A stretch of DNA of 64,000 bases from Cloeon dipterum (lineage: Eukaryota > Arthropoda > Insecta > Ephemeroptera > Baetidae). The position numbers and the translations under genes were made by a program. Where the stretch lies: positions 33,032,335 to 33,096,334 of the forward strand of contig NC_088788.1 in the NCBI RefSeq assembly GCF_949628265.1. The letters run 5' to 3'. Shown piece by piece: positions 6,992 to 58,137 of this stretch. Position 1 is the stretch's first letter; the number at the start of each line of letters is the position of its first letter. The notes below the pieces were generated by a model that saw only the letters and a list, made by a program, of their open reading frames with translations, did no database searches and was not told where the DNA came from.

Positions 6992-9900
6992 CTAAAAGGG
7001 AAGGCTGGCTACAAACATGTTCTCGATGAGCGGCGGCGCCGGCACCAGCTCCTCCAGCTTCAGGTAGAAAATGCGCTGCAAGCCCTGCACGCTGAGCGAA
7101 CGCAGCTCGGGCAACTTGCCCAGCAGCCGACTGAAGTAGTGGTTCTTGCGTTGCGCCTCCGCGTTGTACGTTACGTGGTCGCGCAGCGAGCCGATAATCT
7201 TCATCTGCAGCTGCTCCACGGCGCGCGTGTCCTTCAGCCCGTGACGTTCTGTAATCCAGAGCAGACGAAACTTTTTAGTGAGTTTGACACAGGAGTAGAC
7301 AGATGCTGCAAAAGAGTTGACTGTATTGCCGCAAGAATGTGGAATGAAAATTTAAATAATGAAACGGAGATGACCCAATCAAAATCAGCTAACTCTCTCT
7401 TTTAAGAGCTAACAGGTTTAACGCATAAAACAAAAGGTTTCGGATGTTGCAAGGCTTTTTTTGCCAATTTTATATATGCCGGTATATCCAGTCTTAATAT
7501 TGTGTAGTGAGTCGTAGGTGCACAGAAAATTTAAATGTCTTGAATTTCCAATCATTCGCATGATCATAAATATTTGATGTTGGTTGAACCAATATACTAA
7601 TTTTAAAAAATATATTCTGCTGATTTTCAAAATGAAATGAATTTATTACCGCTTTTAATTCTCTTTTCCTTTTTTCGCGCAAATAATGACTTATGGCGGA
7701 GTCAAATTCAGCAAAATACTGAAAGCCCTAAATTAGTAGGTTTATATCCAGCTTGTTTTTGCTGCAAATATCTATTGGGCATTTTTATACGCATTGGAAA
7801 ATTTGTGAACTCTGGATTAAAAAATTGATTTTGTAAAATAAACTTTCAGACCACCTAAAAATATATACATTTATGAATGTGCGATCGATTTCAATAAAAA
7901 AATCAAGAAATCAATGCGGAAATCTCTAAGTATTAATTTTTCCAATGTAGTTTTCCATAATTTTTTGGATGCAAATTTAACTAGCTAAATTTTTTAAACA
8001 AAAACAGTATCTCAAGAGCAAAACATAAAAGTCATTCAAATGGTAAAAATTAATAAATAAATGCGTTATTAAAAAACACTACAGGTTTGTAGCGTTAATT
8101 ATTGTGCTGAGTTGAATTAATAGCAAGATCTAAAACGTTTTTCTCTTACCAGTAACGAGAGTGAGCGCGCAGAGGCAGGCGAAGGCTGAAATGTCGATCT
8201 CCATAGCGTGCAGCGAGGCGCAAAACTCGAAGATAGCCGGCAGCCAGTCGCCAAAGGTGCGGGCGCACTGTTGTCGGTCGAGCACCACGCCGTTACAGAA
8301 GGTGAGTCTTTGGTCCTGCGGCCGGGTCCTTTAAAGATAATAAAATCAGTTTAATTATTTAACTTTAAGATAATTCAAATTTTCGATTCTCACCTGTAGG
8401 CTAGCCTCAGGACGAAAAGCTCAAGCGATGCCGACTGGAAGAGCAGTTCCTGGTCCTCTTTTTTGAGATCGGCAAAGCCGGGGATTTTTTCCGCAAATGA
8501 GCGAATCACGTCGACAGATGTGGTCAACAAGCTGTAGAACTGACGGACCTTTTCAGCCTCTGTCTGCGGCATGATCGGCGCAGCACAGTACTGCAAAACA
8601 GCAATTGTCAACATTATATACCAATCAGATTATAAAAAATTGTAGCATTATTAAATAAGAAAAATTAGAAATGTATGCCGAAGAGTGTTTTTTCTCACCT
8701 GCGAGTAGTCGAGATTGTCGTGGTCAGGTGAGGTGTCGAGGTGGGCGCGCACGAGCGCCGTGATGAGCGAGACGGGCGGGCTGGGCGGCGACTCGTGCAG
8801 CGTCTTGGACTTGGAGGGCAGACGGCCGCGGCGGCCCTTGAGCAGGTCGGTGCGCACCACCTCCTTCACCATGCCGACGATCAAGCACTTTTGGAAGCGG
8901 CAGAACTGGCACCGGTTGCGCCGCCGCTTGTCCACCGGGCAGTTCTTGTCCGCCAGGCACACGTACTTGGAGCCCTTCTGCACGGTCCGCTTGAAGAAGC
9001 CCTTGCAGCCCTCGCACGTGCGCACCCCGTAGTGCTGGCACGCCGCCGTGTCGCCGCACACCGCGCACAACTGCGACGTCCCGTTGCCCTGCAACCGAAC
9101 CGACGCAAAAACTGTCAAGTGGTGCGCAATTGGAACGAATCGATGCCTGTAAAATATCTGCGGTGGCAGCTTCGATTTATACGCAATGTGTTTGTGCGGA
9201 AGCGTAAAATTGTGACTGTTTGATAAAGCTTCACAAATAAACATCCTGAACTTTTTAAAAGTATTCAACAGGAATAATCAAAAGCTCTTTAAAAAAGAGT
9301 GCTTTTGTAGCCTTTAAGTGTTGAGAAATTTACTTTTCGTCATTAAACTATCAAGATTTTTGATACCAAAATCACCATTTTTTGTTATTTTCTCATTCAA
9401 ATTTTTAATTCAAAATGCAAATATTTTTCTGCTATTTGTTAGAGTTTTAACAGTTTCGAGAGATTCTCACCCAGGAAACTAGAAAAAAGTGATATGTTTT
9501 ACTTTGGAAACTTATTTGAAATTACAATTATCTCTCCCACGCAGTAAAATATAGTTACAGTGTCATTTTTCACCACCTAGAAACCCTTTTTTAACGTTGA
9601 AGAAATAAAAAACTATCGCATTAAATCAAACGAAATAACATTTTCACATAAATTCGCAACAAATTTAAGATCTCACCTTATCAGCGGCTCCGCGTCGCGA
9701 TGGCGCCGATGTGGGCGCCGCGTTCGGCGAGGTTGCGACGTTTGGCGACTCTGCGGCCCTTTGGACGGGCAGCGAGGCGCGGCGCTGCCGGTGGTCGGCA
9801 GGTGGCGGCGCCACGGCGGCGCCGTTCGCTGCCGGGAAGTGCGGCAGACTGTACGAGTCATGCTGCGGGGTGTCGCCTTTGAAGCAGCCACCTGGCGCCG

Positions 9901-12900
9901 CGTGGTGCGAGTCGGCGCCGGCGAACGGGTAATCGGAGTAGTAGTCATCGGCGCCGAATTGGTAGAAGTAGTTAGACGGCGCCGCAAACTCATTGCTCTT
10001 TTCCATGTCCTCGTCTGTGTCTGAAAACATGAGGAATTTTTGTTATTGATTTAAATTAATTTCATAAATTGTTTTTTTAAATTTAATATTTAACTGAAAT
10101 GTGTTAAAAAATTCTTGGCTGTATTTTGTTTTAAATTTTACTTAAAACAATTCCTGATTTTAATTTTAAACGAAAGACAAAGATGCTTGGAATATTATTA
10201 AACAGTTTTTGGCATTTGCAACAATCATGGTAGAATTCTCACCGAGGTGGCTTGAAGATCTCAGGGTGGCCGGCTCTCCAGTGACGGCCATCTTGAAGGC
10301 GGCCGCGAGATGCAGGGTGGCCGGTGGGCTGGTACTGACGGACGGTGGCGCCGGCGACGAAGCCTGGTCCGAGTCGGCGCCGGTCGAGTCAGGGCCGCCG
10401 CCACGGTAACGCGGCGAGTACGTGTCTTGGAAACTGGGCAGAGGGCTGGGTGGGCCGTGGGTCGGTGAAGACTCGTGCTGGAAGCCGAAAGACTGGGCCG
10501 CCTCTCGAGGATGAACCTGTGAATCGAGAGAGATTCCGTGATAAACTCTCCTTTAAATTGATTTACTCAAAAGCGGTGTTTTTTTTATATCCTGGAAGTG
10601 CAAAATTTAAGCTATAAAAATAATTTTGAAAGAAATTTCTCGTATTAGTATAGATGCTAAAAAAATCAATAGCCGTCATACTTATAACACTTGCGTAATT
10701 ATTTTTCGTGTGATTTTCCGACTGTCATAAAAACCATTTTGTTTGGAATTTTGCTATCAATATTAACTCTTAAGTAAGCAGTCTCTTTATCAATACTTAA
10801 CATTCTATAGAAACCTTTACCTTTAAAAAATCAAGATTTCTTGACGAGTGAATTTAATAAAAAAAATCCGCAGTTTGTACCTGCTCAGCCTGCTGATACG
10901 AGTTCTGTTGGTAGAGTTCCACCTCCTGGAAGGCGTCCAAGGGGGGCGGGGGTGGGAAGGTCGGGGGCTCGCTCTGAGGCTGGCGGGGGTGGCCTTGGGG
11001 TCGTGCGTCCTCGGCGAAGGAGGCCGAGAGCAGGTCTACGAAGTCTGACTGGCTCTGCAATAAGACGAAAAATTGCGTGCATTGAGCTCTCTGCTATGCG
11101 GCTTGCAGGGAAAATTCATTAGGCGGGCACTTTCGGCACGCTCGGCTGATCGGCCGAGGGAATTAGCGGCGGCGCTAATTCGACGCCCGGATTGATGAAC
11201 GTCCCCTCCACGGAGTCATTTTCCGTGGCTCGCTGCCCGCGTTGACATTTCGCGTTTTATTCCGCCGCCCCTAATAAAACAGCGCATGCAACGCTCCGCT
11301 GCTTCCGCCACGCGCACCTTGCACCCCGATCGCAAAATCCGCCTCGCTAGGGAAAAAAAATTCCTCGAAGACATTATAGTTTCTCTGTTGAAAGCAACTT
11401 TTTTGTTAACTTAAATTTGAATAGAATAAAATTATTTATATCGAGTAAAAAACTGTTCAGTGCGGGTTAGTATTTTTAGGACATTAAATTTCCTCTTTTT
11501 ATAAAAATAAATGTATTAAAACTTGATTAAAATTTCCTTATCATTATGTTCAAAGGATCGAATCAACATATAATCAGGTCTACGTTTAAACCATCCCACT
11601 TAACAAGAGGGTAAAATAGGGGTTGATTAGCTGCTTTTTAGAGAACGAGGCGTGAAATCCGATATACACGCAGCAGGGTGCGTGATGAACGTGCCCATCT
11701 GTTAATCTAATGGGCCCGTTGACAAAGCGTAATCGCGCTCTCCACCCCTTTGAGTGCTCTTGTGAATGAGAGAGATTTTAAAAGAGCATCAGCGCGCCAC
11801 GGAGCGTGTCGAAAGTCAAAATATTTACTGTAGGACAACACATGTCGTCAAACAAACACTTAAGCTTCATCACAAATATACACACAGACAGAACTAGAAA
11901 ACTATAGAAAAACTCCAACCTTGAAATTGAAATTTAATTGTGGCTAGAAATACTTTTAAAAACGGATGCATTGTGTTTATTTTGAAACAGTTTCAACAAG
12001 AGACTGGATGCGTCTAGAAAAATTACTTAATTTTGTGACTTGGAATTTTAAAAACACAATTCATCCTCAATTGTAATAATTTTTTGTGGCAAAGTGTGTG
12101 AAATTTTGAAAAATAGTACCCTGATTTCTAAGGAATCTCGGAATTGCCATTAATTTATTTTTTTTAATTATTTTTAAGAAAAATTGCAAATAACAAGAAA
12201 ACGAAAGAAAATTATAGTGCGTTCGTCTTACCTGTCTAGGTCGAGGGAAGAGGCGGTTGAAGGTGGGGGTCGGGGAGGCGGGAAGCGCCGTTCTTAGCTG
12301 CGGAGACGGGCTTAGCTGCAGGGCAGGGTCATCGCCGACCGGACTCGGACAGCTGCTGCTTCCTTCTGCAACACAAGTGGGCGCGTCTGCGTTAGTGTCG
12401 GGACGCACGATCGAGTGTGTCACGTCGCTACCGTGTCTGTGGAGCGCGTTGTACATGGCTCGGGGGTTGAGGGCCGAGTGTGTGGCCCTCGGCCGGCCCA
12501 CCGGCCTTATATTCAGCCGGGGTGCCGCGCTCCGTGAGCACAAGCACCCCCAGGAGACGGCCTGATATTTAGCCGCCCCATTGTCATCTCGTTTCAATAA
12601 CTCGCCCTCTCTCCGCCGTCGAAATAATAATAAGCCGTCGATTGCACTTCGCGGGTTATAAAATCCGCTCTTTGCAAACTGATAATTAAGCCTCGCACGG
12701 ATTTATTTTCACCGGTAATTGCCTTCTGATTGCGTTTTACATTTCTGCATTAACAAGTAAAGCTATTTAAAGGAAATTTGTGAAAAATCGTTTATCCTAA
12801 AATTAAGAAAAAAGCTTACAATTTCCCAGGTTGCCGTTTAATTTATGAGAAAATCGGCCCAAAAACTTTTGCATGCTAATCAAGCGGTGAACATCAATTG

Positions 12901-15900
12901 TCTCTTTATTGTAAAATCACGATTTGTTTCTCCAGAATGGAAATTTAGCTCGTAATTCGCACACCATTAGATAGATCACGATTAGAGAGGGATCGAAATA
13001 AATTGACAAAACCGTTTAATTTTTCGATAAATTTGTCAAGATCTGAAATGTAACAGTTCCTTGGTCATGATTTTATTATAGCACATTTTAGAAATGAAAT
13101 GTTGCTTAATTTCATACAATAAGCCAATGAACTAATTACTATAGTCAAAAATATTACTAGTTTTTGGCCTCGAATTAAATTGATGCACTTTATTTGTCTT
13201 GTAAACTTTTAGTCAATGAAACCGCAATCATAGGTCTGCCAAAAGAAAAATGCATAGCTTAATTTAACTTTTGTATGTGAATAATCAAAATAGGGAGATA
13301 ATTTATAAAACAAAATGAAACATCACACTCAAAATTAATGCGCATGTGAGAAAAACTAAAACGAGCATTAATTGCACATTTTTAATCAGGTAGCCGCCTG
13401 TAATTGCTGAAACCAATAATAAATAAGTGCTTAAGTGAATTCAAATCGGAGAGGGTTAAATTGGGTGTAGCGGCGTGCCAAGTTCTTGGCGTTGGTCATT
13501 GAATTGTCCGGCAGCTGCAGCCGCCAGCGGAGAGTAAGATGCATCAAAATACTTCTTCTCTCTCGCGCTACGGCCAAAATAAACCGGCCGACAATTTACT
13601 CTCGGCACGCTGCTCCTTTTCCATTATTTTTTCCCTCGCCAAATCGCACGCGAGTGTGGAAACGCGGATCGTGTGTGAGCGATTAATTGCACCGTTTAAT
13701 CCGCCAACCAAAGAGTCAATTAGAGTGCAAATTGGTAGGTTTCTCTTTCACCTTCGCGCGCGGAGCTCGGGTTTTGGTGCTGGAGAAAAATTATCTGCCG
13801 ACTGCATTACATAATAATTCACCTGGACATAGTAAATATAAAACAATTAAAGATGATTGCGAAATGCAGGAGGAAAATACTTGGATTTTAAATACATTGG
13901 ATAATTTGAGGAACTTTATAATTATTACCATTTCCTAGTGATTGAAAATATTAGGATGACGGACGAAACAGCAAATTGCATTTCTCTTCACATTGTTTCG
14001 AATCCGAGTTTTCGGAGAACAGTGCAATTATTATCCGCGGCGACCTCTGGCACTCTTACACCGAAGATTTCTCACACTTTTCCTTCAGTATTGAAGTACA
14101 GTTTCAAATTGTTATTATTATTTAATCCACGCGCGCAGCAATTTGCACTTGCATGATTTGCCAGTCATTTTTTCGCGCTGTGTATAATCAAGGACCATAA
14201 TCCATTCTTTTTTCGCGCGAAAAATGAGTCAATCAGCTCACGCGCGCGCTTCAATTGTCCGTTTTCAACAGCGTGAAAGTGAAATTGTAATTGTTTGCCT
14301 TTCCGCTGATTAATAGTTTCGAGTGTATGACAGCACAGTCGGGATGACTGACAAAATTAGTGGAAAAACAAGTCATTGATTTCTCTCTTTACGAGATGCC
14401 TCTTTTGTTTACTTAGTTATTTGAATGACGGATTATTAAATAAAATAATAATAAACAATCTGTCACTTACATTGCATCTTATTTATGTGGAATTAGCATT
14501 TTAAAATTAATATTCAATAACGGACCAAATGGAAGTATTTTTTTCAATTGTTTCTAATTAAAATTTCTACGAAATCATCTGAAATATGATATAATTTATA
14601 GAGCAACATGACTAACACCAAGCAAAAAATCCAGCAGCTAATTTAAAAATCGGTCTTTGTTTCTGAGAAATTTTAATTCCCTGGGCAGGCCGTTTGGCCC
14701 CAATTTGTATGGGTGCCAAGCCCGCTTTCGACGGCATCAGTATTTTTGCAGCCGAATTCAATCGGCAGTCTTTGAATGCACTCATCGCTTGCACAATCAG
14801 AGAGAATCAAGCAGTGCATCTAATGCTATTCTTTCTCGCCGCGAGAAGAGACAAGGAGCGACGCACCCAACAATTCTTTTGAGCCGCTTTGGTAACAAGC
14901 AGCATTGCAGAAATTTCCTTCGGCTATTTCTGCTCGAGCGCCATTACGGAAGCAACCCCTTCGTGCCATCTGCGGTCGGCCCGGGGATGTTTTTCGCCCC
15001 GTGTCTGTCGCGCCCGTCTGACGTCATTGATTCTCCGCGCGAATCGACAGGAAAAAAGATTTGCTCCACATACATGAGGTTTCATATTCTTGCTTTGTAC
15101 AAACATGAGTTAATTATTGCAATGTTATAAAATGATGGGGATATAGAGCCGCAATTAGTGAAAAAGAATTAAAATTTATTTTAGTAATAATTGCAAGAAG
15201 TGCTTCATGGTTAGTATATTTTATTCAAATAATAAATAGTTTAGATTGAATTATTTAATGTCTATTTCAAATAATTTTTAACTACATTTTGCCACGAAAA
15301 CATTATGTGGTTTTGATCAATTCAATAATCATTATATATCTTTATTCTTTCAAAGTCAATAAACAATACATAGAAGTCAAAAGGATATAATGCGGTAATT
15401 GGCAAAAGATGAGCAAGCAAAATATTGCAAGAACGAGATAAATTACATTAAATAATCTTTAATTCACTGATCACTGCGCAAACTTGCCTCGAATCGTTTA
15501 AATTATATTTAAATGGCTTTTTGAGTATATGTATATATTGCGAAACGGCAGTTTCATAGAATGCTTTTTTCTCGAGTCAATTATTTTCACACCAAATGTA
15601 CATCAGCTGATGTAGTACTGTTGCAAAATTAAGCTACAAGTAAAAAATTGGAATGAAACGACTATAAAGAAAATTGATCATTTTCGGCGTCGGCAACAGT
15701 GGCTCTTTTTCGGCCGGGTGCAGATTTTGGCTGGAATCGATAGAGTGCGGGGGCGCGTCGGGCGGACCCACCCCCCGGCGCGTGCAGAGGCGCGAGGGTG
15801 CGCGTGAGGCCATCGATTGTGGCGGTGACGTCACCGGCAGCAAAGACGTCAGCGCGGCTGGTGACGTCACGGGGACCGTACCCTCATCCACCCCCGGCCA

Positions 15901-18900
15901 AAGCAAACGGGAGAGACCGCGTTCGTTGGTTCGTGTTTGCCTCTTTGTTCGTTTGTTGTGGGTCAACGCGCCTTCAATTCGCCCTTTCACTCTCCCGTCT
16001 GTGCGAAGGCCCAAGTTTCTCTCGCTTTTGTGCAACTCCGCCGCGACCGTGGCAATTTTGTCAATTTGGGATTCTCGTTGCGTCAATTCTGCAGTTGCAT
16101 CTTATCTCATTTATAAAAATAGATTACGGGGTTTGGAGATAATGCAGCACGCATGACTAGGGGAAAATTGGATCATCTCTCATCTACATGAGATGAAATA
16201 ACATACGGAATTGATCTAATTTCTTCATTGCCTAAATTTAATAATAAAATTCAGCTATCTCTGTGAAAAGCGAGTCATTTCTTTTTCTGTGATTAAACAG
16301 ACGGTTCTTAAATTACCTCATGTCAAAGTTCTGTTTGATACGAAAATTCATGATATTAGTACGGAGGATTTATTTTTAATGCACATTTTGTTCCTCAAAG
16401 ATCAACTTTTTATCCAACGAACTATATGTCATGAGTACCATTTGAACCAGGCAGACAGTAAAATAGTCATGCATTAAACTAGGAAACGAATACAGTTCAA
16501 CTCCTTGATTTTGACCGCAACTAGGGTGAAGTCTGGATTTAAATTTTTATTTTTAACGGAGCAATAAACCTCAAGAAGCAATCTGACATTAAAATAATTT
16601 ATTTTCTCCCGATTAAAGCAAAATTTAAAAAAATCAGAACATTACTTTTAGCAAGTCTAAAACAAGCATAATTTTCCTAACACTGAAATAAAAGAAAACC
16701 TGAAAATCATGATTAAAAAATCAAATAACTAAATCTATTCGAGTGAAAATGTTTAAAATATTATTCTGAGGATATTACAGAACTCTAAATATATAAAGCC
16801 AAACTATCCTTCCTATGGGAGCACGGAATTGATGCAAAGATTTATATTAGGAACTGAGAGAGTCAACCCCAAACGGACGGAAATGCGGGAATTCGCTCAT
16901 CAAATGCATTGTTTTATCGCGGCGCTGGAACTGGAAGTTGCGTCACCGATACGCATGCGGTGTGTCCGCGCGCCAGAGAATACAGTATACTGTGCATAGC
17001 GGCCGCGGTCAATGAGGAGAGCGAGGGAATAGCCGACGTCATTGCCGGGAAATCAATGGACCGGGGGCTAATGACGTCAAGCATGCGGTGTTTGTGACGT
17101 CATTCCAGCCCTGCTGTGAGCACCACGCTTTTATGCCGGGCTGCGGGGGTGTCATTCATGAAAAATGAATTTGCGCCCGGCGCCGCCACTGCAATCATTT
17201 TCGCTCGATTTCGGGCTTCCACTGCTGAAAAGCAAACCCTCTCGAGGCGCAGAAGCCACCCTTTGAGAAGGGGTTGAAGAGGAAAGATGCTTTCGCTTTT
17301 AATTGTGAGCCAAAAATAACTTTTTCGATGTGAATGAATAAAAATCAAATGAATCGAGAAGATTTTTCATTCATTCCTGATATTAATGATCGCGGCAAGT
17401 TGAAAAATAATTTATTTTTACAACCGGTGATCACCCCTAGAGAACACCTGCCGAAGGGTGCAGAGGCTGTTTACTGTTTGAGAAGGGTTCAAAGACCCGT
17501 TAGCATCCATCTGAGCGGCGATTGAGAAACGGAGCCAATTTGAGTGCGATTGGCCAAGCGCGGCAGCATCGGCAGGTCGCTCGCTTCCTGAGGTGAAGGC
17601 GCGATTGCTGCTCGGATGTTCCAATCTGCATAAGCGGCCGTGAAATGGGCCGTTTTTACATAATAAATAATGGAGTCGCCGAAATTAATAATAATTGCGT
17701 TACGGCGGCGCGGGACTGGTTACGTGATTTGTCTCGATATCGAGGAGGATCACTCTCTCTTTTCGCTGGAGGCGTCTGCAGCATCCCATGGCGCGGCAGG
17801 TTACCTGCCGAGGTCAGCCGGGGGTCACAGTGAAAGCTCACTCGTCTGCGTAATCGCATCTGCCTTTCCAATGCTCCTTTTCGCGGGCTGCTCCTCTTTT
17901 TTCCATCCTCGTTCGCAGGCAAGGGTAATTTAGAAAGCTAGCGGCTCGTGTGAAAATCGGTACAACAACAAAACACCTGGAAGATGCGGTTTCGGGTGCA
18001 GCTGCATCCCACGACCCCTGAAATTGAATTAATCTGCGCGAGGCAAAAAGCAAAACGCGACCGAGCTAGGAAATCTTTTATCGCTTTATGAGACCCGCGG
18101 ATGCTGCACAGCCTTAATAAAGCAATAAACATATGGGTCAGGTTCCTTCTAGGAAATTTGCGAAATTTACTGCACAGTCAAAAAGCAATTACTGCACTTG
18201 TTGTGCAATCCGATAATTTGACTTCAATTGCACTTGCGAAATTCGCATTTGGAAAGTACCCTATGACCACAGAGCTGATTTATAAAAAAAATGTTATAAA
18301 TTTCTATACTGCTTCGAATTTATTTTAAATTGCACGCTGCCCATAGTTTAATTTGACCATTTTCAATTCAGACTAACAGAGAGACACTTTTTAAATCAAT
18401 GAATCTGCAAAATACGCCATTTAAGATAATCAAATTTACCGAGTTTAGAATCAGAAGGGTTAAAAATAGAAGCTTATATGGTACAAAATTTAACTGTTTC
18501 GAATTTTCATTTTATTTTCGGACCACTCTTTATCTCTTAAATTACCTGAGCCAAGAGTCTTTTGGTTTAATTTCCAATTTGCAAATGAAAAATTTGACAC
18601 ACTCTTCAATCACTAGAATCTAAATTAGCAGATAAAAATAAAACTGCCGCATGGGAAGTGCAGTGGCCCCGAGGAGTTTAGAGAATGCGAAACCGTCATT
18701 AAAGTTCCCAAAGCAAATATGCATATATAATATATATAGGAAAGAGATTTAGCATGCTACCTGTTGGCGAGCAAAGGGCGGTCTTGTCGTCGAGCTCGTC
18801 CTCGCTGCAGTAGGGCGGCAGCGACGACGAGGCGGCCGAGGTGCTGCTCTCGAGGCTGGCCGTGCGGCCGCACAGACCGAGGAGGCGGCCGGCCGACGGC

Positions 18901-19094
18901 CGGCGCAGTGGCAGGTAGCGGTCGGCGTCGCCCACGTCGATGACTGCCGACCGAAGGTTGAGTTTGTTGATGAACAGGATGCTGGGCTCAAGCTCGTTGC
19001 CATCCGAGCCTAGCACCGAGTCCTGGCTGCTGCTGTGCTGGCTGTCCGTCCACAAGACATCTTCTCTGAGGAACCGCATGCACTCCCTCTTCAT
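6992..19094 (-). CDS. Hr38: Hr38, NR4A-family orphan nuclear receptor (long form, 760 aa)
   Basis: Ligand-independent nuclear receptor of the NR4A group (Nurr1/NGFI-B relatives) and an activity-induced transcription factor. Nine exons with consistent phases: 19094-18761, 12365-12232, 11054-10881, 10516-10243, 10020-9677, 9088-8699, 8590-8394, 8328-8150, 7248-6992 (TAG). Residues 1-420 are a low-complexity Ser/Pro/Gln-rich activation region. The DNA-binding domain begins near residue 428 ([20 protein letters not shown]), with P-box CEGCKG and an NR4A-type C-terminal extension ([12 protein letters not shown]). The ligand-binding domain spans about residues 551-760, with [47 protein letters not shown] and terminal SLPF, all NR4A hallmarks. 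The long-form ATG follows an in-frame TAG directly; the same bases (cttgtctag) could also be a splice acceptor, so a further upstream exon is possible. The identity is secure; the 5' end is less so. Confidence 0.93.
12366..12456 (-). CDS. Hr38: Alternative Hr38 first coding exon segment (short form, 679 aa)
   Basis: The exon ending at 12232 stays open upstream of the acceptor used by the long form. Reading starts at an ATG at 12456 ([15 protein letters not shown]...) and runs in frame into [14 protein letters not shown] transcript starting here would need no 18.7 kb exon; the CDS 12456-12232 plus the seven later exons totals 680 codons including stop. A TATA box lies 50-55 bases upstream. NR4A genes in other animals use alternative promoters (family knowledge). 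Use of this start is inferred from sequence only. Confidence 0.5.
12506..12511 (-). promoter_or_regulatory. TATA box of candidate internal Hr38 promoter
   Basis: The minus strand reads GAATATAAGGCC, a good TATA element, in a GC-rich setting. It lies about 50 bases upstream of the ATG at 12456, so the start site would fall near 12480. Confidence 0.45.
15019..15026. promoter_or_regulatory. CRE (TGACGTCA)
   Basis: Perfect palindromic CREB/ATF site in Hr38 intron 1. Confidence 0.6.
15826..15869. promoter_or_regulatory. CRE cluster in Hr38 intron 1
   Basis: Two perfect TGACGTCA sites (15826-15833 and 15862-15869) flank a near match, AGACGTCA (15844-15851), all within 44 bases inside a GC-rich island. 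The clustered full palindromes suggest a CREB-responsive enhancer or alternative promoter for Hr38. Confidence 0.65.
17034..17102. promoter_or_regulatory. CRE cluster in Hr38 intron 1
   Basis: Two perfect TGACGTCA sites (17072-17079 and 17095-17102) plus CGACGTCA (17034-17041). A related TGACGCAA occurs on the minus strand near 16940. Confidence 0.65.
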
Positions 19095-19270
19095 CTAGAC
19101 AAGCATGTGTGCTCGGCGCCACTCCGCGACACTCAATGCTGCCGGCCGGTAAGACACCAACTATTAAACCAGCGCTGACGTGACGTCAGCCGTGACGTCA
19201 CGCCCGCCCCTCTCCAACCCTCGCGCCGCTCGACCCCCGTCATCCGTGACGTCGTCCGCGACGTCACCAC
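19095..19270 (-). promoter_or_regulatory. CRE-rich proximal promoter of the Hr38 long form
   Basis: Immediately upstream of the ATG at 19094 lie two perfect TGACGTCA palindromes (19181-19188 and 19193-19200), a half site (19176-19180), and two one-mismatch copies (TGACGTCG at 19247-19254, CGACGTCA at 19259-19266). Adjacent CREs close to the start codon are expected for a CREB-driven immediate-early gene. I see no clear TATA box. Confidence 0.65.
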
Positions 19271-22200
19271 CCGCCCCATCGATTCGCACCCCCGCCCCTA
19301 CTGCCGCCTCACAGGCTACGTGCACCACCGACCATTTTTTCTTTCTGTTGCCGACCAGAGTCACAGCTCCAGCCGATCTCATTTTTCACAGACGACAGCG
19401 TAAAACGGATTGTTTTACCTGCAATTAACTACCTAACTTTTTATCTTTTGCTCTTCAAGTTGTGCAATTTTTACGGTCAAACATGTTTAATCCTTTCAAA
19501 ACAATTAATAATTGATCCAGCATTAATCTTGCACAAATACTCCTCTCAATATCTGTTTTTCCTGAGAAATACAAATAATATTGGTGTTTCTTCCAACAGA
19601 AAACGAAATGTTCAAAATATAAGTTACTTTAAAAATTATTTCCATTGTTAAATTTTGAACGCTCACCTGATCATTTTTTGCAAACCTGTTCAACTAATTG
19701 GTACTGCCATTGAAAAATATTTCCGCTGTTTGTGCTCAACATTTAAATTTTGTTGTTCCTCTCATCCCCCTCTTTTCGTCACATGATGAAAATGACGAGA
19801 TTAATCGGAATTTATTCCAGTTCACTGTATTTGAAATGCCCTTTGACAGAATTTGTGTGTTTTTTATTATTTGTGTTAACCACCTCCGCACTTGTAGGTG
19901 CGCGCATGACCGAATTTGATTCAAATCGAGCACCGGCCGGTTTACGCTTGCAGCGGACTAGTTGTGAACCTCTCCCAGAAATAATACTTAAAATTACTCT
20001 CAATTAAGTAATTTAAAACATCAAATGGAATAATTAGGGAATGGCGTCAAAACTAAAAGGGACATTACCTCAAAAAGGAGGGAAATTGACAATATAGAAA
20101 GCTTTTGGTCCAGTCAACTATCCTGCGTATTAATCAAATAGACTACTTGTCCTTATGATATATATTTCAATACAGCTATGCGAAAAGCCACCAACCAGCA
20201 TTTAATAGCAAATTGTCCTGTCTGAATTGAATTATAATTTAATACAATTAATTAAATTATTAAGTGTAATTAATAGATCGAAAACTGAATCCAATATTTA
20301 ATTAAATATAAATTGGTGACTGCTGAAAGAATACCTAGATAAATTTTGCTACATTCCAAATTAAACCAAGTGACAACATTTATGAGCTCACACCAGTCGG
20401 TACCGCTGGGGACAAAGCCGAAAGTAAACAGAGATGAGCCACTGTGTTCCTGTTTAGATCAAAGTTGAATCATTCATGCCTAACAGAAATACAATTTTAT
20501 ATTTTTAGTAAATAAAAGCACTAGTTTACATTTTTTCTTGCAGTTATTCACTGCTGACTTATGATTTTATCTAAAATCCTTAAATCGAAGTAATTACAGA
20601 TTAATAAAAAAACACCATGATATTTTTTTTAAATTGCAATTTAACATCATGAAACTCCAGTAATTAGTCAATTGTATTTAAGATAATATAACCCCATTGA
20701 AAATATAAAATAATCCAGTTCTATGGCTCTTGATCTGAGGGTTTGACCAAAATCGACATGTACTTCATGGTTTATCCATGAGAAAAAAATAAAATAAATT
20801 TTTTAGTCATACACACCTTAGTTTTACAGCAAAATTCATTATTGTTATTAAAAAATTACATTTCTTTCTTATTAATAAACTGTCATTCAAATGAATCTCT
20901 CAAGAGTAAAACGTCTGAAGCAAGAATTCCGCAGAATAAACCTGTAGCCTTTATCGGATTTATGAAATATATTAAAGCACGATCAATTAATAATTTCACA
21001 CCGCTTTGCTCTCTGAACGCAGGTGAAACGAAGCTCTAATCGATTGGACTAAAGTGGTTGCGTTACATGGGCGCTGCAGCAGATCAATTGATCTAATAAA
21101 AAATTACATATAACACTCTGTCGGTGATGTTTATTCAACGCTGAGGTGTGCAGCACGTCAGCCGGGCGCGCAAAACGACGTTGTATAAGTGAAATTATGT
21201 GATCTCTTCCACAACAAAATCACCGCTCGTTCGTTCGTTTGCAAATCACGACGTCTTCATCGCGCTCTCAGAGCAATGAAAGGCAGATCGGATCGCAAAT
21301 AAGCAACGCATTCCGCTTGCAAAAATGCTCAATTACCCACATCAACCATCTATTAAACGCGGCCGGAGATTGTTTGCCGCTGATTTATCGGAACATTGTT
21401 TCAATTCGCGTGCTTTCGCATCACTCTTACAACTGCACCAAGGCCGCGCGAATAACGATATGGATCCATTCGAGACGATAAACTGCACTTGGGCAATTTC
21501 ATATGCAACTAGCCACACAGCAAAGCAAGCTGGTGATTGAGAATATGATAGATTTTCAATTTAATATTTATGTTATTGGAACAGACTAATAAACATAATT
21601 CATTGTTCCATAATAACATTTAATCGCCCATGGGCAGTACAATGCGTCTATACAATACGCATCAATTAACGCAATTTATGTTAAACTAGGCTGAAGTCTG
21701 GAGAGTGTTTAGAGTAGCAGTAATTTTTGCTTCTATTTTATTCACGAGTTTCAGCGGGTTGTTTGCTAACACTATAAATACCTCATTTCTCCTCAATGTG
21801 ATTTTCTTTATTTTTATAACTGCATAGTAGTATGACTTGTTTTGGAGAAATAAATCGAATTGAACTAAACATTTATTGGCCTTCAATTTGAACAAAACAC
21901 TCCCTTAATGTTTCATTTTTTGCGAAATTATTGAAATCGCTTATTGTATTCTAACGAGTTCATTTTCCGCAGTTATTGGACGCAGTTTACTTAAGACGGG
22001 AGATGTTTCAAAATTAAATTGTGAAGACAGCTTTCATAAAATCGTGGTGATATTTTAAAAGTGGACTCTACTTGACAAAACCAATCAATCGGTGGTTTAA
22101 CAAAGAGTTTCCCTATTATGGAGTTTTTGCTTTAATTTCATTGTTGAATTGGAGTTCCCGAAAATTTTTAAAATATCAACGCTTCTAAAACAATTTTGCT

Positions 22201-33300: not shown

Positions 33301-36300
33301 TACAAAATAAAAATTAATTTGTAGGACACAAAATTTATTATTTTTGTTTTATAACAGGGATGGATTCCAGAAAATAAATATGTCATCTCGTATACATTTC
33401 ATTATTTACTCTGCTAAATATTCTCACTTTTGAAATTTTAATTAGAACATTCCATCAGTAATTTTTCTCAGAAATGCTTACAAATAAGGGATATATTGAC
33501 TTAGAGAGCGAGTATCAAGTCGTGTTAATCATTTACAAATTTTAATTTGGATTGTCGTTTTCCAAATCATAAAAAATGTAATATTACACAATAATTAATA
33601 GTCACAAGAATTATAAAAACAATTCTCTGACACGCACTAGCAGTCATGATTAGCAGATAAACCATATACGCACATTGAGCAGGTGGTGGAGCTCGGCAGG
33701 TTCCTTGTCCCTGAGGTAAAAGAGGCAATTGCGAGGGTGGTGCGCGTGGAGACCGAGTCTGGCGCAATTGGGGCTGACTTCGCAGCGGGCGCCCATCACG
33801 AAGCGGCGGTTGCAGCCCGAGCAGAACTCGAACTTGCACTGTGGACACGTGAAGTGCATGCAGCCACCCCTGGCCAGTGCGAAGCGGCTCAGGCACTGCG
33901 GACAAGTGATGCCGTGCTCGGCCAGGTGGCTCTCCAGACCCTTTTTCTGGTTGTCAGGGTCGTTGGCCGCCTGCCACTTGGCGAACTTCTCGCAGCTGAC
34001 ACCTTCGTGCTGCTTCATCCACTAAGAAAATAATAAAAATAGGAATATTGACCCTAAAAAAGAATAGAATATACACAACTGACAAAAATGTCGAGTGTTA
34101 ATTATTGAAAAATAATTAATTTAACAATATGACCCTTTTTACTGAAGATTTTTTTACCCTGATGAAAATAAAAATATATTGAGAAGGTTCTGCACTGCAC
34201 AGGCCAGTCTCTACCATCATAGTTAGACAATAATTAAAAAATAAATCATTTGAATTATTCGGACCGCTGATAAAGCAATTAATTAGACATAATAATTAAT
34301 TCCATATTGATAAGTATGTGAATAAACACATTTAAAAATTGTTAACTGATTTTTGAATCCAACAAAAAGATTTACCGGCTGTCGACACTGTCCACAAGTG
34401 ACCGATTTGCAGTCAGGACAGACCAATCTCTTCTGCTTCGGGTTTGCAAAGTACCCTGATGAGCACTGCAAACGTAAAATGCTAATTAAAGAGAGACAAC
34501 TAGCAATACGATAGAAATTCTGACCTTGATGCACCACCTGAAGCTTGGGTCCTGCATCAGGGTGAAGTCTCTCAGTTTTCTCTGGAAAAGCTCGTGGACC
34601 TCTGCGTCCAGCACATTCTTCAACAGGATGTCCAAATTGCTAAAGTACTCGAGAGCTATGTCGTCGCTGCAGACAGAAAGTTAGTTAAAAAACTGCGTAT
34701 ATGCTCAGCTAAAATGCAGTTGTTCAAACCTCTGTCTTGCGTTGAGGTCGGAGGGCTCTTTGCAAAAAGGACAGACAGCATCAACGATGCTCCTGTCCCT
34801 GATTTGGATGCTGAAGTAATGTCGTACGCATTCTCGGCAGCAGCGGTGTGTGCACTTGAGCATGCTTATCATCTAGTAAAAAAGCAAGGTGAATTGGATT
34901 AATTATTGAACCTTCGTATGCAACCGGCACGACTTTGGTGCCCACGCGGTTGCAGATGTAGACCTAATCTTTTCTCTATAGCAAGATACATAGAAATTTC
35001 AATGATATTTATTGCGAAAAGATGGATAAAGATTCCATTATTTGTAACATAATAATTTAAAAATTGATTTGTAAAAATCCAACTTGCAAAAAATATTGTT
35101 AATTTGAACACCATATCTCTTACATCAGAAGCGGTTGCTTTGGCCATACACAGTTCACACTCTTGCTGCAGAAAGGCGAGGGCCGAGTCGAGGGACGTGC
35201 ACTCCTTGGCCGCCATCAAAGCATCTTCTCTGCTGAAACCTTCACCCTGAATGCTAGCCGTCAATTCCGCCTTTTCGTACGTGTCAATTAGTCCCTCAGC
35301 GAGCAGACGGCGCACTTGACGCTACAAAGAAATAAATGCGGAACAGAAATTGATTTTGTGATATAAAAATTAAAAATTGAAAAGAGTGTGATTTTATTCG
35401 AAGTTTTGAAGAAATATACCTCAAATTCGTGCTGCTTTAGCTGCTCCTTGCTCATGGTAGAGGGAAAACTGGCGGCGTCTAGGCTGAGACCTCTTCGCAG
35501 CAGGCCCAGAGTGGGCAACGGGTTTCCGCTGTTCATCTGTGGCAGCTTTTTCACGGTCAATCTGGCGACGCTGGCATCAATTTCATCGATCATGCTGACG
35601 TTCATCATGCTCTGCGCAAACATCAGTGAACCACCTGAAATCGCGATATCAATATTTTGACATCACCAATAAAAGTACAAAATGTTGGGACACTTGAAAG
35701 GTATTTTGAATTTGGAAAATCGTCCACAATTTAATTTTATTTCGAGAGTAAATAATATATATTTTCCTCATTTGCACGTTTCTCTAGATCAAGGTTATTA
35801 TGTATTTACCTGTTGCTGTCATAATTTTTCCGTGCGGCCTCCTCTTCAAAGTGCTCAGTTTTTCTGACACAGAGTCGTCCTCGTTTACTGAGTCCTCATC
35901 AATTGGAGATACAGGTGGTGGTTCTGGTTTTTGGTCCAATTTCTGGGCTTCCTCTGTAAAAGGTGGTTCCTCTAGGGGCTTCGCAGTATTTTCCATAGGA
36001 ATATCTGCGGGCTTCAATGGGGTTTCTTCGGGGTTTTTCAGGCTTTCTACACGAACTGAAGGGATTTCCGCAGGGGCTTCTGCAGACTTTGCAGATTTCT
36101 CTTCAGACTTCACGGGGGTTTCTACAGTTTTAAAAGGGTTTGCAGGAATTTCTGCAAGTTTCCCGGATTTTTCTTCGGGTTTATTTGTGATTTTTTCCTG
36201 AAGTTTTGCCGTTTGTTCAGGAGATTTCCGCTTCGGTTTGGGAGTCAACTCGGTGCTCTCTGCTTTGGCGATGGGCGCTGCTTCCTTCGTTTCCGCCACT

Positions 36301-42300: not shown

Positions 42301-45300
42301 CAAAAATTATTCGTTACAGAATTGATTTTTTTAATAATTTAGACTTTTTTAGACCTAAGCCAATATGTTGAAACTTTGCTGATAAATAATTTTTTTTTTA
42401 AAGAAATATATTTATTTTGAAAGCTACAGAAGCCCAGCCAATTCTGGAGAATTAACGGCTGGTGCTTATTCTGCTACACAAGGCAGCATAATTTTAGTAC
42501 ATTAGTAAAATATAAAATAAAATAAATCAATATTACCCTTCCGGAAGTTTAATTTTGAATCCAATTAGTCAACGATGTTTCTAAACTCACCAAATTTATG
42601 AAATTATTGATAATTTCATTTATCTAATGAGACGGTTAAAAAAAATTCAAATGGACCCAATGAAAAAATACGAAAATTATTACCTCTGTGCCTGCTGTGG
42701 CCTTTCGTTTCTGCGTAGCCGTTGGTTTCTGATTTGCTGCTCTTCCGCCTGCGCTGCAGACTCCTCCTGCCCATATCCGCGTGTTCGGGCTCCCTGACGT
42801 TCTCCCTGACCTCGGAGGTGCGGCGGCGCTCCTCGTTGGCACGCATCTCTCTGCGATTCGCGATCTGCTGCTTGGCAGTGCCCCTCCGCAGCGACGGCTT
42901 GATGGTGCGCCTCGCCTGCATCTGCGTGTCCGGCGCAGGGAGAAAGTCGGCACTCGGCGTCTTGCAGCAGATGGCGCACACCCTGGTGCCCTCGGGGTTG
43001 ACATACGTGCAGTGCTCGCACTCCCAAGGGTACGGCGAGTTGTCCGGCGTCTTCTCCTCGCCGCCGCTGCCCTGGAAGTGGAAATTTTTCTGATAAAATA
43101 AAAAACTTGATATTATTTAGACACTTAAAATATTACAGTTTTGGAATTTGTCTTTTTACACCGGAACAGATTGAAGACGTTTAAATGTTTTGCATAGAAA
43201 ATTTTCTTTTGTTATTCCGTGTTATTTTTTTTCAAGTTTCAATTTTTAGAGTGCTACATAAAATGCTTCAGAGGCTTGAAGCTATTAAATATTTATTTTT
43301 ACCCCAAAACTGTCTTCCTCCTCTTCCTCATCAGACGAGTCTTTTTGCCCAGGCAGAGACTTGCACTTAGAGTGAACGCTGGCGGTCGGCGACGAGGCCA
43401 TCGCCCTGCGGCCGGTCACGCCGCTGATGGTGGAGAAGTCTGGCTGCCGGCTGCGGCTGTACAAACTCGTGTTGCTGCTTGAGCGGGTGAGTCGGGGAGC
43501 TGGCGCCGGGGCTGGGGCTGGGGCCTCCTCGTAAGGGCGGGTCGGACCAAAGTACTGGGGTGCCATCCACGGTGGCTGCTGGTAATTCATGCCCATCATT
43601 GAAGGGTGCATATGCTGGAATAAATTAAATTTTATTAAATTAAAAATCTACTAAATGATCATGATCAAAGTTGCGCAACATGTCTGTTTAACAATTTGAT
43701 TTCGAATTTCCAAAGATTTTTATTAATAAAAATAAAGACAGTCAAATTTTAAGTCGTTCACCTGCTGCTGCTCTGCAAAAAGCGCTGCCTGCAAGTGACT
43801 GCTGTGCAGTTCATGGACACTGCCGGTCAGAGGCATTCTCTGTGGTGGTCGCGGATTGTAGCAAAACTGCTGGACCTCTCTCGCTGGCGGCTGCATTTGC
43901 TGCTGGTGTGGCTGCTGTGGCTGTGACTGCTGTTGCTGTTGCGGCTGTTGCTGCTGTTGGGGGCCGCTGTTGTAGCCCATATAGGGGTTGGTCGCCCTCC
44001 TCCGGCCGGTGGTGGCGAATGGCGACATGGCACCCTCGTACCGCGAGTAGCCCATTGGCATTCCCCGGTAGCCAGCGGTCTCTGGCACGATTGCTGGCTC
44101 CACTGATTGCTTGTAGTTTTGGAAGTCGTAGCTCTGATACAAGTGCGAACAAAAATGAGAAATAGTTAAAGATATACAAGTTGAATAGATTAATTGTTTT
44201 AAAATCAAGTGAATGACTTAATAAATAGATTAATGTTCGCATGCGTCTGCGGGTTAAAACAAAATATTTTCGTGATTAAAAATAATTAAATTTAAATGTA
44301 GTACCGAGTTTCTGTTATTGTTAGGGAGGTTGGCCACGCTGATCGAATGACTGAGTGCCGCCCTGTTTGCTCTTTGAGGGGGTTGTATGCTAAAAGGGTT
44401 GGGCGAGTAGTTCGCATTCCCCTCAGGTCGATCAATGTTTTCTTTTCCGCCGTTCATGTAGTTTTCCACGGGAACTGGAATACCTGCAAGCGAAACTAAA
44501 TTCCTTCCACCTCTTTTTGTCAAGGAGTTAGTTTTCAGTGGCGCAAATCCGATTTTTTTAAATTAGATACGCAAAAAGGTATGAGAAATTCCCGACCTGG
44601 AACTTAAAGTACGAAAAATTCGAATTTAAATTCCAACTTCATCAAATAAAATCGTTAAGAGCATAATTTTATATTTTGGGACAAGAAGTTACGCGACTGG
44701 GATTGTCAAAAAGTAAGGTTGCCTTGAGCGTCGAACTGGACCCTGGCGTTCTGCTCGTGCATCTGCTGCGGCGTGGGTCTGGGCCGGCCGCTCATGAAGC
44801 GGCGCAGACTGTTCATCTTTTCGGCCAGCGAAAACTCCTTCCTGGGCAGCGCCGGCTTCATCTGGTCAGCCCCGTAACCCCGGCCCTAATCCATCATCTC
44901 ATTAAGTGGTTTCTAGCGCTAGCACGCAGCGGTGGTTGCATTTCGATAGAGCTCTGCTAGCATTGCTTCTTTGTCTAATTTTTATAAGATAATACACATC
45001 TTGACTTAAAATAAAGAGTTTAATTGGTGAATTTTCCTTTGAATAATGCATCTAATCTAAACCAAGGAATGATTAAAAATGAAATTATGTGCCGCCTTGC
45101 ACCGCACTCACATAATGCTCATGCCCGTCACCAAATCATGAGAATTGAAAAGAAAAGACAGGGATAGTAAAGGATTAAAAAGTGAGTGAGTGAGAGCCGC
45201 AACGGATTGGTACCTGCGTCATGTGGTTCATCTCCTGGATCATCCGAGGTATCTCTGGACTTGGCGTCGAAGACCGCATGTCCTTTTTGTTCCTTCGCGG

Positions 45301-55610: not shown

Positions 55611-57140
55611 TCAGTCACTCAATCTCTGTCCTTGATTTCCCGCGCTATCATTCACAGGCACTACTTGCCCAAAAGGTGAAGTCATAGAAAACAGCACAGG
55701 TATTCTGTCCAGCGGTGGGTTTGTCTTCTGCAAAAATCTAATCCACGATAAAAGCGAGTCTTTGCTTGAGGTGCCTGTCGCTGCAATCGCGATGATGGTG
55801 CCTTCCGCTTGCTCGTGAACAGTTCGCAGAGGCTCGAGAGTCTTTTCAGCTGCTTCCTCGTCAATATATGGAGATTTCAAATTGGAGACATCTGATCAAC
55901 GTTAAGATCTTTAAAACCATTGGCCTCTGAAAATCAATAACAATTTACCATCAATCTCGTCCATGGTGGGGCGCGGCTGGTATGGCTTTGGCTTTCCTCT
56001 CAACACGAAATACTGGACACATTCGCTTCTCAGCCAAATTTTAAAAGCACCTTCCACATACAAAGGCTGGTCAGAAGGAAGCCTTCCCAAGATTTCCTTC
56101 TGCAGAGGACTTTGAGCACTCAGAATCCAAGTCTTGTCTAATGAGTCTTCCAGGTCTTTAGACTACGCATATATGAAAAATTCAGATTTTTTAAAACGTT
56201 TAACGTATAACAGACAACAAAAATTATGACTTTTCATTACTTATTTTGCCCATGCACACTAAAAATTTCTTTTTGGAAAAAATTCTCAACGAAATTTGAT
56301 TCTAAATTGTGCAGGGCGCAATGAACAATGCGGAAAATAATATTTAACTAAGTAAATCTTTTTAATCAATAAGGAATTGATAATATTAGAGCCATTCATT
56401 TTGAAACAAATTTATACCGCATACATCAAAGGTGTTGATCTTGGTGAGAAGATCCACACTTGTTATCCTTTGCAAAGCTAATTTTGCAAGTTCGAAAGGG
56501 TCGTCAGGCACAGGCTTTGGAAGAGGCCAGGGTGACAGGTTGTTGAATTTCGGCATCCAGTAGTACATCCTCATGAACTTGCGCACTGGATGGCCAGTTT
56601 TGCCGAAAACATTGGTTAGCATTACTTCGACTTCCATGTCAGGAATCACTCCTAAAATGCAATATAATTAAAAAAAGGCATGTTGACAGGATAAATCCAA
56701 CCATTTTGTTCCATTTTCTCTAAGATATCAGTAGCACATTGCTGGTGTTTTGGGTAATGCTGGAACGCCTCTTGAAATAAGTTGCGCGGAATCATTTTGC
56801 CTTTGGGAAAAATGCCTATGAGGGCTTTGTACACTTCCAAGTCTTTGCTGACGCCGAATTCATCCATGTGCTTCATCGCCGCATAAATAAACTCGACATG
56901 GCCTCGCTTGAGCACATTCCTCTCGTTATATTTTCTGACCATGTCAATATAACTGTTCTTATTCTTTTCTTTCATGTCGAAGATGCTCTTGGCGACCACT
57001 TGCTTTTGCTCTTCTTGTTCACTGTCATCTGCCTTCTTCAGTAGGAAATTCGAAACACCAAAATTTCGGGACGACTGCAGCCGATCTGCACCTCCTGTCC
57101 ATCGGGCAAGGACGCCGGACAAGAGCCGTGGCCTCAGCAT
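55611..57140 (-). CDS. Ecsit: ECSIT, mitochondrial complex I assembly / Toll signalling adaptor (386 aa)
   Basis: Mitochondrial complex I assembly factor, also described as an intermediate in Toll signalling. Exons: 57140-56702, 56651-56425, 56162-55949, 55891-55611 (TGA); 1161 nt in frame. The N-terminus (MLRPRLLSGVLARWTG) is basic and lacks acidic residues, as expected for a mitochondrial presequence. Family blocks seen: KRGHVEFIYAAMKHMDEFGV, IFPKGKMIPRNLFQEAF, HYPKHQQCATDILEKMEQNG, NVFGKTGHPVRKFMRMYYWM, LPKPVPDDPFELAKLALQRI and the C-terminal EGTIIAIAATGTSS...RIPVLFSM. Length is close to mammalian ECSIT. Confidence 0.94.
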
Positions 57141-58137
57141 TGCAAAGCGAAATAAAAATAAAATGTAGACTGTCGGTTATTATAAAGCAAATCGGCACTA
57201 AATCAATTTTTTTCAAACTCTCAAGCGGCCTCACTCAGTGCCATTAAAGACTTCAGACCTGATCAGCATGTGCAGGCATGACATGTGCGAATGCGAAGCT
57301 TTGTTTTGAGCTACCAGCTGAGACTGAGAGCGGTCGCTGAGTGCTGCCACCTGCCACTGCAGAGAAAAAAGTCGTAAGGCGCAGTAATTCCATTTCCGCA
57401 TTTACACATTCCACACTCAACATTCCACACTCCTCATCCACAGCGGATGTAGCCCGTGCCATTCATAAGCTGCGCGTACCTAGACGGGCCTTGTTAACTG
57501 CACGCTTTATTGATCGAATTGCGCTTTGATTGTGTCTGATGTCAGTTGGAATGTGAAAACCGTCAAATTGAAGAACGTTCAGCAAAAGTTAGTTGTGCGA
57601 TTTCGGTTTTCGACTGATCTGGCCAGCGCCCGAAAAGAGGAAGCAAGCTGATCGACCGGTGATTATAAGCCGACAATTTTATGATTCACAATCAAACCAA
57701 TACCCACACATATAGATATCTATATTATGTATATATGTATCTATTTAATCTTTTTTTAAAGCAAAACAAAACGCGTCATTATACATACATGAACGTATCA
57801 AATAAAATAGAGGTTAATAAATATAGTGTAATGTAGTGCAATGCTGCAAAACATGTGCCGTAAAACTGTCAAAGAATCAAAGTCAAGGTTGCGGTCAACC
57901 TCGTTCTTTAATTTACTCATATATGTACATATTCTCAGCACGAGTACGTATGTTTTCTCAGCCAATATTATTTTTCTGCAGCACAATGAAGACGTCTCAC
58001 GTTACAACAACCGTATTACGTGGTTTGCACTCTCCTTTCACTCTCACTCCTCCGGCCCCGAAGAGAGGTGCTATGCCGCTGTTTGACTAGTCAGTGCGTG
58101 CTGCATACGCGGTGTCGTGTTCATATTTGCGCGGAAT
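57141..58137. other. Divergent intergenic region ECSIT / TTC39C
   Basis: Holds the 5' regions of both genes. An AT-rich tract with repeated TATG/TATC steps and the palindrome ATAGATATCTAT sits at about 57711-57750. No coding exon seen. Confidence 0.4.

Follow-up and report, generated by a model that had tools for sequence, protein, structure and literature searches.

Seven perfect cAMP response elements clustered at the Hr38 gene of Cloeon dipterum suggest a multi-module CREB input

Results

We analysed a 64-kb window of the Cloeon dipterum genome (C3:33032335-33096334; the genome comprises 190.1 Mb in 10 contigs). On its minus strand the window carries Hr38, an NR4A gene, and with it seven perfect copies of the cAMP response element (CRE) palindrome TGACGTCA. 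Positions given without a contig or locus are window coordinates. The seven sites fall into four groups, namely clusters P, B and C and the single site D, each of which lies within its own GC-rich island (Table 1). A recount bore out the first-pass annotation of this DNA in the number and positions of the sites, and no further perfect TGACGTCA was found in the remainder of the 64-kb window. The near matches that it had placed beside each cluster are also there: five one-mismatch CREs lie inside P, B and C, and none stands beside the single site at 15019.

Table 1. Hr38 exons and CRE groups in the window
Feature	Position	Strand	Remarks
Cluster P, proximal CRE cluster	19176..19266	none	perfect CREs 19181 and 19193 (gap 4); near-CREs 19176, 19247, 19259
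Cluster B	17034..17102	none	perfect CREs 17072 and 17095 (gap 15); near-CRE 17034; GC-rich island 16901-17300
Cluster C	15826..15869	none	perfect CREs 15826 and 15862 (gap 28); near-CRE 15844; GC-rich island 15601-16100
Site D	15019..15026	none	lone perfect CRE; GC-rich island 14801-15100
Distal first coding exon of Hr38, likely	18761..19094	-	starts MKREC; ATG 19094; donor ACAG/GTAGCA, phase 1
Internal first coding exon of Hr38, likely	12232..12456	-	starts MYNAL; ATG 12456; donor CAG/GTAAGA, phase 0
Shared N-terminal exon, likely	10881..11054	-	from reading frame and splice phase; 3' end by eye
Hr38 DNA-binding domain	8816..9073	-	Pfam zf-C4, 3.6e-30
Hr38 ligand-binding domain exons	6995..8629	-	best solved match Drosophila HR38, 1pdu

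The identification of the gene as Hr38, made in the first-pass annotation, held up on comparison with solved structures. The best matches of the DNA-binding domain were NR4A2 and NGFI-B, and 1pdu came top for both of the ligand-binding pieces searched (6995-7351 and 8393-8629). Judged by these domains, the gene is Hr38/NR4A. A search of the genome with the Hr38 DNA-binding domain gave no sign of a second NR4A gene, since the next best matches were 61-63% identical over 60-70 residues.

The exon boundaries of our Hr38 model come from reading frames and splice phases only. Hr38 likely has two first coding exons, one distal and one internal, and both of these putative exons splice onto the shared exon at 11054. 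The donor of the distal exon (after 18761) is weak and falls below the cut-off of donor scoring; that of the internal exon (after 12232) is the sole donor above the cut-off at 10.5-20.5 kb. An inner acceptor within the internal exon (exon start 12365) is in phase with the distal exon, and a TATA-like GAATATAAGG lies by the internal exon at ~12514. Clusters B and C were rejected as sites of further first exons for want of a donor above the cut-off there; this exclusion is weak because the same score missed the distal-exon donor too.

The lower edge of cluster P is 82 bp above the putative distal ATG, which is placed from the reading frame. A minus-strand scan of 10-20.5 kb found no TATAAAR near this cluster, and by eye the only TATA-like candidate was TTTAATAG at ~19166. 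Cluster B sits in what is likely the first intron. In cluster C, the near-CRE lies halfway between the two perfect sites, giving 18-bp steps. The putative internal ATG is 2.6-4.6 kb downstream of groups B, C and D; since two first exons are likely, these groups would be intronic for the distal promoter and upstream for the internal one. The first-pass annotation had proposed one proximal CRE module and further modules in the intron. By sequence that layout stands, but the annotation missed the internal first exon that probably lies at 12.46 kb and, with it, a possible second promoter, upstream of which the intronic modules would also lie.

To assess chance, we shuffled the DNA while keeping its composition. 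The dinucleotide shuffles of the whole window (100 runs) held 0.73 CREs on average and at most 3, compared with the 7 observed. Because the CREs sit in GC-rich DNA, we ran a second test on 15001-19300 with shuffling confined to 200-bp blocks, which preserves local GC; 5000 such shuffles gave a mean of 0.045 CREs and a maximum of 2. By both procedures there are more CREs at Hr38 than composition predicts. A plain Poisson rate puts the probability of at least 7 CREs in 4182 bp at ~2e-10 per stretch, a figure that serves as a guide only because real CREs are clumped. Chance occurrence in GC-rich DNA, which the position of the CREs within GC-rich islands might suggest, was already strongly disfavoured by the island-preserving shuffles and is hardly credible: the other five GC-rich islands at 10-21 kb (10201-10600, 10801-11400, 12201-12700, 13501-13800 and 17401-18000) are devoid of CREs.

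The whole genome contains 6403 perfect CREs, compared with 2625 copies of a reversed-word control. This corresponds to 2.16 CREs per 64 kb, so that the earlier expectation of about one per 64 kb was too low. The average is raised in part because repeat families carry the motif; several of them (C1:36-43 Mb and elsewhere) hold TGACGTCA within sub-repeats of 11 bp or in ends that resemble hairpins. At the start of C1 (70 sites listed, to 2.97 Mb), 5 of the 70 open a 64-kb stretch holding 7 or 8 CREs, and seven CREs per 64 kb is therefore unremarkable. Counted over 4.2 kb from each of the same 70 sites, the number is at most 2.

We also inspected 17 other loci with non-repeat CRE pairs (L005-L009, L032 and L039-L049; 3.0-6.0 kb each). 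They hold 2-4 perfect CREs each: two CREs at 13 loci, three at L046 and L049, and four at L009 and L039. Hr38 is thus not alone in having several CREs, since the last two loci hold four each. L009 (C1:15465755-15468781; CREs at 852, 1501, 1520 and 2025) is another candidate CREB target; by eye, its neighbouring frames include an LDL-receptor-type repeat. Gene identity at L005-L009, L032 and L040-L049 was judged by eye only. The clustering of seven CREs in 4.2 kb at Hr38 is unusual among the genome parts examined, the comparison covering the listed start of C1 and the 17 pair loci. Equal CRE density at many unrelated loci, which the first-pass annotation had named as speaking against its claim, was not seen in these parts at the 4.2-kb scale.

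To compare close spacing, we counted CRE pairs separated by 0-30 bp. There are 236 such pairs genome-wide and 47 for the reversed-word control. Because many of the listed pairs are repeat copies, we used the three gap ranges that were fully listed, 4-13, 15-17 and 28-30 (gaps 0-3, 14 and 18-27 were listed in part). These contain 21, 5 and 17 CRE pairs, respectively, 43 in total. The reversed word gave 0 pairs at gaps 15-17 and 0 at gaps 28-30, and a second control, the CpG-containing palindrome TGTCGACA of the same composition, gave 0 pairs at gaps 4-13. By eye, 17 of the 43 pairs are repeat-like and 26 are not. The latter number is an upper bound because the pair at C5:29398048 forms a hairpin that is nearly perfect, and because loci L032 and L041 have a reading-frame fragment in common, so that their pairs may be neighbours of a dispersed repeat.

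Hr38 contributes three of the 26 non-repeat pairs, one in each complete gap range and all within 3.4 kb. Within the three complete gap lists, no other non-repeat locus has two pairs within 20 kb. Of the 16 non-repeat pairs at gaps 4-13, 6 are set at a gap of exactly 4, a 12-bp step (binomial 0.003 for ten equal gaps, an excess picked post hoc, once the data had been seen). At L032 (C3:7278900-7282900), positions 1964-1985 (C3:7280864) hold a 22-base CRE pair plus spacer identical to the Hr38 promoter pair; this common unit led to no named gene.

These comparisons bear on whether the clusters could be, for the most part, leftovers of mutation or of transposons. Repeat families are rich in the motif and account for many of the genome pairs listed, and cluster P may itself be a diverged local duplication. 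The segments 19179-19227 and 19245-19298 align locally with a score of 25 that was matched by 0 of 1000 shuffles, a score inflated because CRE cores are common to both segments. In contrast, by eye no Hr38 site and listed repeat family agree in more than about four flanking bases, clusters P, B and C are unlike one another in spacing and flanks, and each of the four groups has a GC-rich island to itself. We therefore regard an origin as leftovers as very unlikely.

The factors that would act on these sites are encoded in the same genome. A CREB gene is present (one pKID match, 1.2e-15, with RRPSY), as is a CRTC gene (one TORC_N match, 7.8e-13, 37 of 63 positions). The 6-kb stretch above the CREB pKID exon (L039, C3:30996501-31002500) contains four perfect CREs in 3.6 kb, including a gap-8 pair at 30998677. 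This pair is one of the 26 non-repeat pairs and lies ~4 kb above the pKID exon. A pair at the CREB gene is what one would expect if pairs mark CREB targets, and the arrangement suggests that the CREB gene may regulate itself via its own CREs.

For comparison, we located an Egr gene (92% identity to the finger query), which has 2 perfect CREs across 20 kb. Its GC island (L035, C3:25706001-25716000; ~25711440-25711860) has one perfect CRE, a CRE half site and a serum response element (SRE). By eye, an inverted CCAAT and a TATA-like word are also present in the island. Judged by sequence, Egr looks as an immediate-early promoter would be expected to look, and its full CREs are far fewer than those of Hr38.

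Discussion

In our judgement, the seven CREs at Hr38 are likely to constitute a multi-module CREB/CRTC (CrebB) input that is split into promoter and intronic modules. The starting points are the CREs, their tight grouping, the identity of Hr38 and the CREB and CRTC genes, all of them observed; first exons, promoters, CREB binding, inducibility and the roles of the modules are what we infer. In such a scheme, CREB dimers would already occupy the CRE palindromes in the unstimulated state. Calcium or cAMP signals would then lead to CREB phosphorylation and to recruitment of CRTC/CBP, and the promoter-proximal cluster P would fire the distal first exon. The intronic clusters could either strengthen the response or activate the internal promoter.

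The scheme agrees with reports on mouse Nr4a genes and on fly CrebB, and the CREB-driven reading of the first-pass annotation is partly supported. In mouse, CREB occupies its sites ahead of stimulation, and activity then brings CRTC1 to CRE/TATA promoters (PMC5740062). Four CREs lie upstream of nur77, three of which are required for the forskolin response in PC12 cells, where the gene depends on CREs close to its transcription start site (TSS; PMC7156746). The vertebrate Nr4a1 and Nr4a2 resemble the gene described here in being NR4A genes with several CREs near the promoter, which here is putative. Six CREs are listed for each of the mouse genes, and one of the twelve is a full site: it belongs to Nr4a2, while every Nr4a1 site is a half site (PMC5740062). 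In Cloeon Hr38, by contrast, all seven are full palindromes, and the likely first intron contains five of these.

Relatives of this gene serve as markers of recent nerve activity. Drosophila Hr38 is its orthologue; it tops the genes induced by one optogenetic protocol in the fly brain (PMC5148613), and CrebB chromatin immunoprecipitation (ChIP) sites from fly embryos overlap mushroom-body peaks of accessible chromatin (ATAC) at the TSSs of Hr38 and sr (PMC12572301). In the cricket, hr38 was termed a delayed neuronal immediate-early gene, and the egr-B core promoter of basal insects and Daphnia has two CREs and an SRE (PMC6140108). This immediate-early core promoter, known from Gryllus and others, is similar to the Egr layout of the present genome; it pairs its CREs with an SRE, whereas Hr38 here has no CC(A/T)6GG in 14.5-19.5 kb. 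Judged by titles and the starts of abstracts, none of the papers listed by our literature searches concerned CRE layout at insect Hr38. The arrangement at Hr38 is a strong instance of an already known arrangement rather than a new kind.

Several points weigh against the CREB/CRTC reading. Strong induction is tied to CRE/TATA promoters, to which Nr4a1 and Nr4a2 belong (PMC5740062), while cluster P of Cloeon Hr38 has no TATAAAR near it. The motifs chosen for reporters from fly activity genes were those of Lola, Eip78C, Rel, br and Cf2 (PMC5148613). At gaps 4-13, the reversed-word control exceeds the CRE, with 34 pairs vs 21. L009 packs its four perfect CREs into 1.2 kb and is denser than Hr38 over that length. 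Going by its title, a paper cited in PMC12572301 reports that Mef2 induces fly Hr38; MEF2-type sites number 47 in the window, under a pattern so loose that the count is uninformative. Finally, basic leucine zipper (bZIP) factors other than CREB also bind TGACGTCA.

This last point raises the question of whether the CREs are real regulatory sites that serve a different bZIP factor (Atf-2, AP-1, CrebA or Atf3) and relay a stress, secretory or developmental input instead of one from neural activity. It is general knowledge that TGACGTCA is common to several bZIP families, and a gap-4 pair at C3:32961402 lies beside a transporter-like frame with no obvious activity role by eye. However, the AP-1 sites TGACTCA and TGAGTCA are absent from 14.5-19.5 kb, the region of the CREB gene itself holds a CRE pair, and work on fly (PMC12572301) and mouse (PMC5740062) ties Hr38/NR4A to CREB. 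We judge a different bZIP input to be unlikely.

The CREB/CRTC reading could be extended. In the extended form, Hr38 would be the genome's strongest distributed CREB target, full CREs, in pairs that favour a 12-bp step, would form a cooperative grammar over promoter and intronic modules and two first exons, and the CREB gene, with the same pair, would feed back on itself. As a whole, this extension seems to us quite unlikely.

If the clusters work as we read them, they would provide short, testable activity-response elements from this animal, for which we know of no reporter, and they would support an old CREB-to-NR4A link common to vertebrates and insects. For searches in this genome, the number of CREs per 64 kb is a misleading measure, since the CRE is also present in repeats; close non-repeat CRE pairs are few and point to plausible targets.

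Other features of the region

The gap-4 pair at C3:32961402 lies in L040 (C3:32959401-32963400), ~90 kb from the Hr38 clusters, and the transporter-like frame beside it, recognized by eye, is on the minus strand. Within the window, the minus strand at 33650-34021 and 42616-43116 encodes an IBR-domain exon and a weak RanBP-type zinc-finger exon (below Pfam's cut-off), which are presumably parts of an RBR ubiquitin ligase. Further neighbours are a BTB-domain gene, an ECSIT gene and a TPR39-type gene, at 2536-2979 and 56652-57176 on the minus strand and at 58423-58869 and 60323-60988 on the plus strand.

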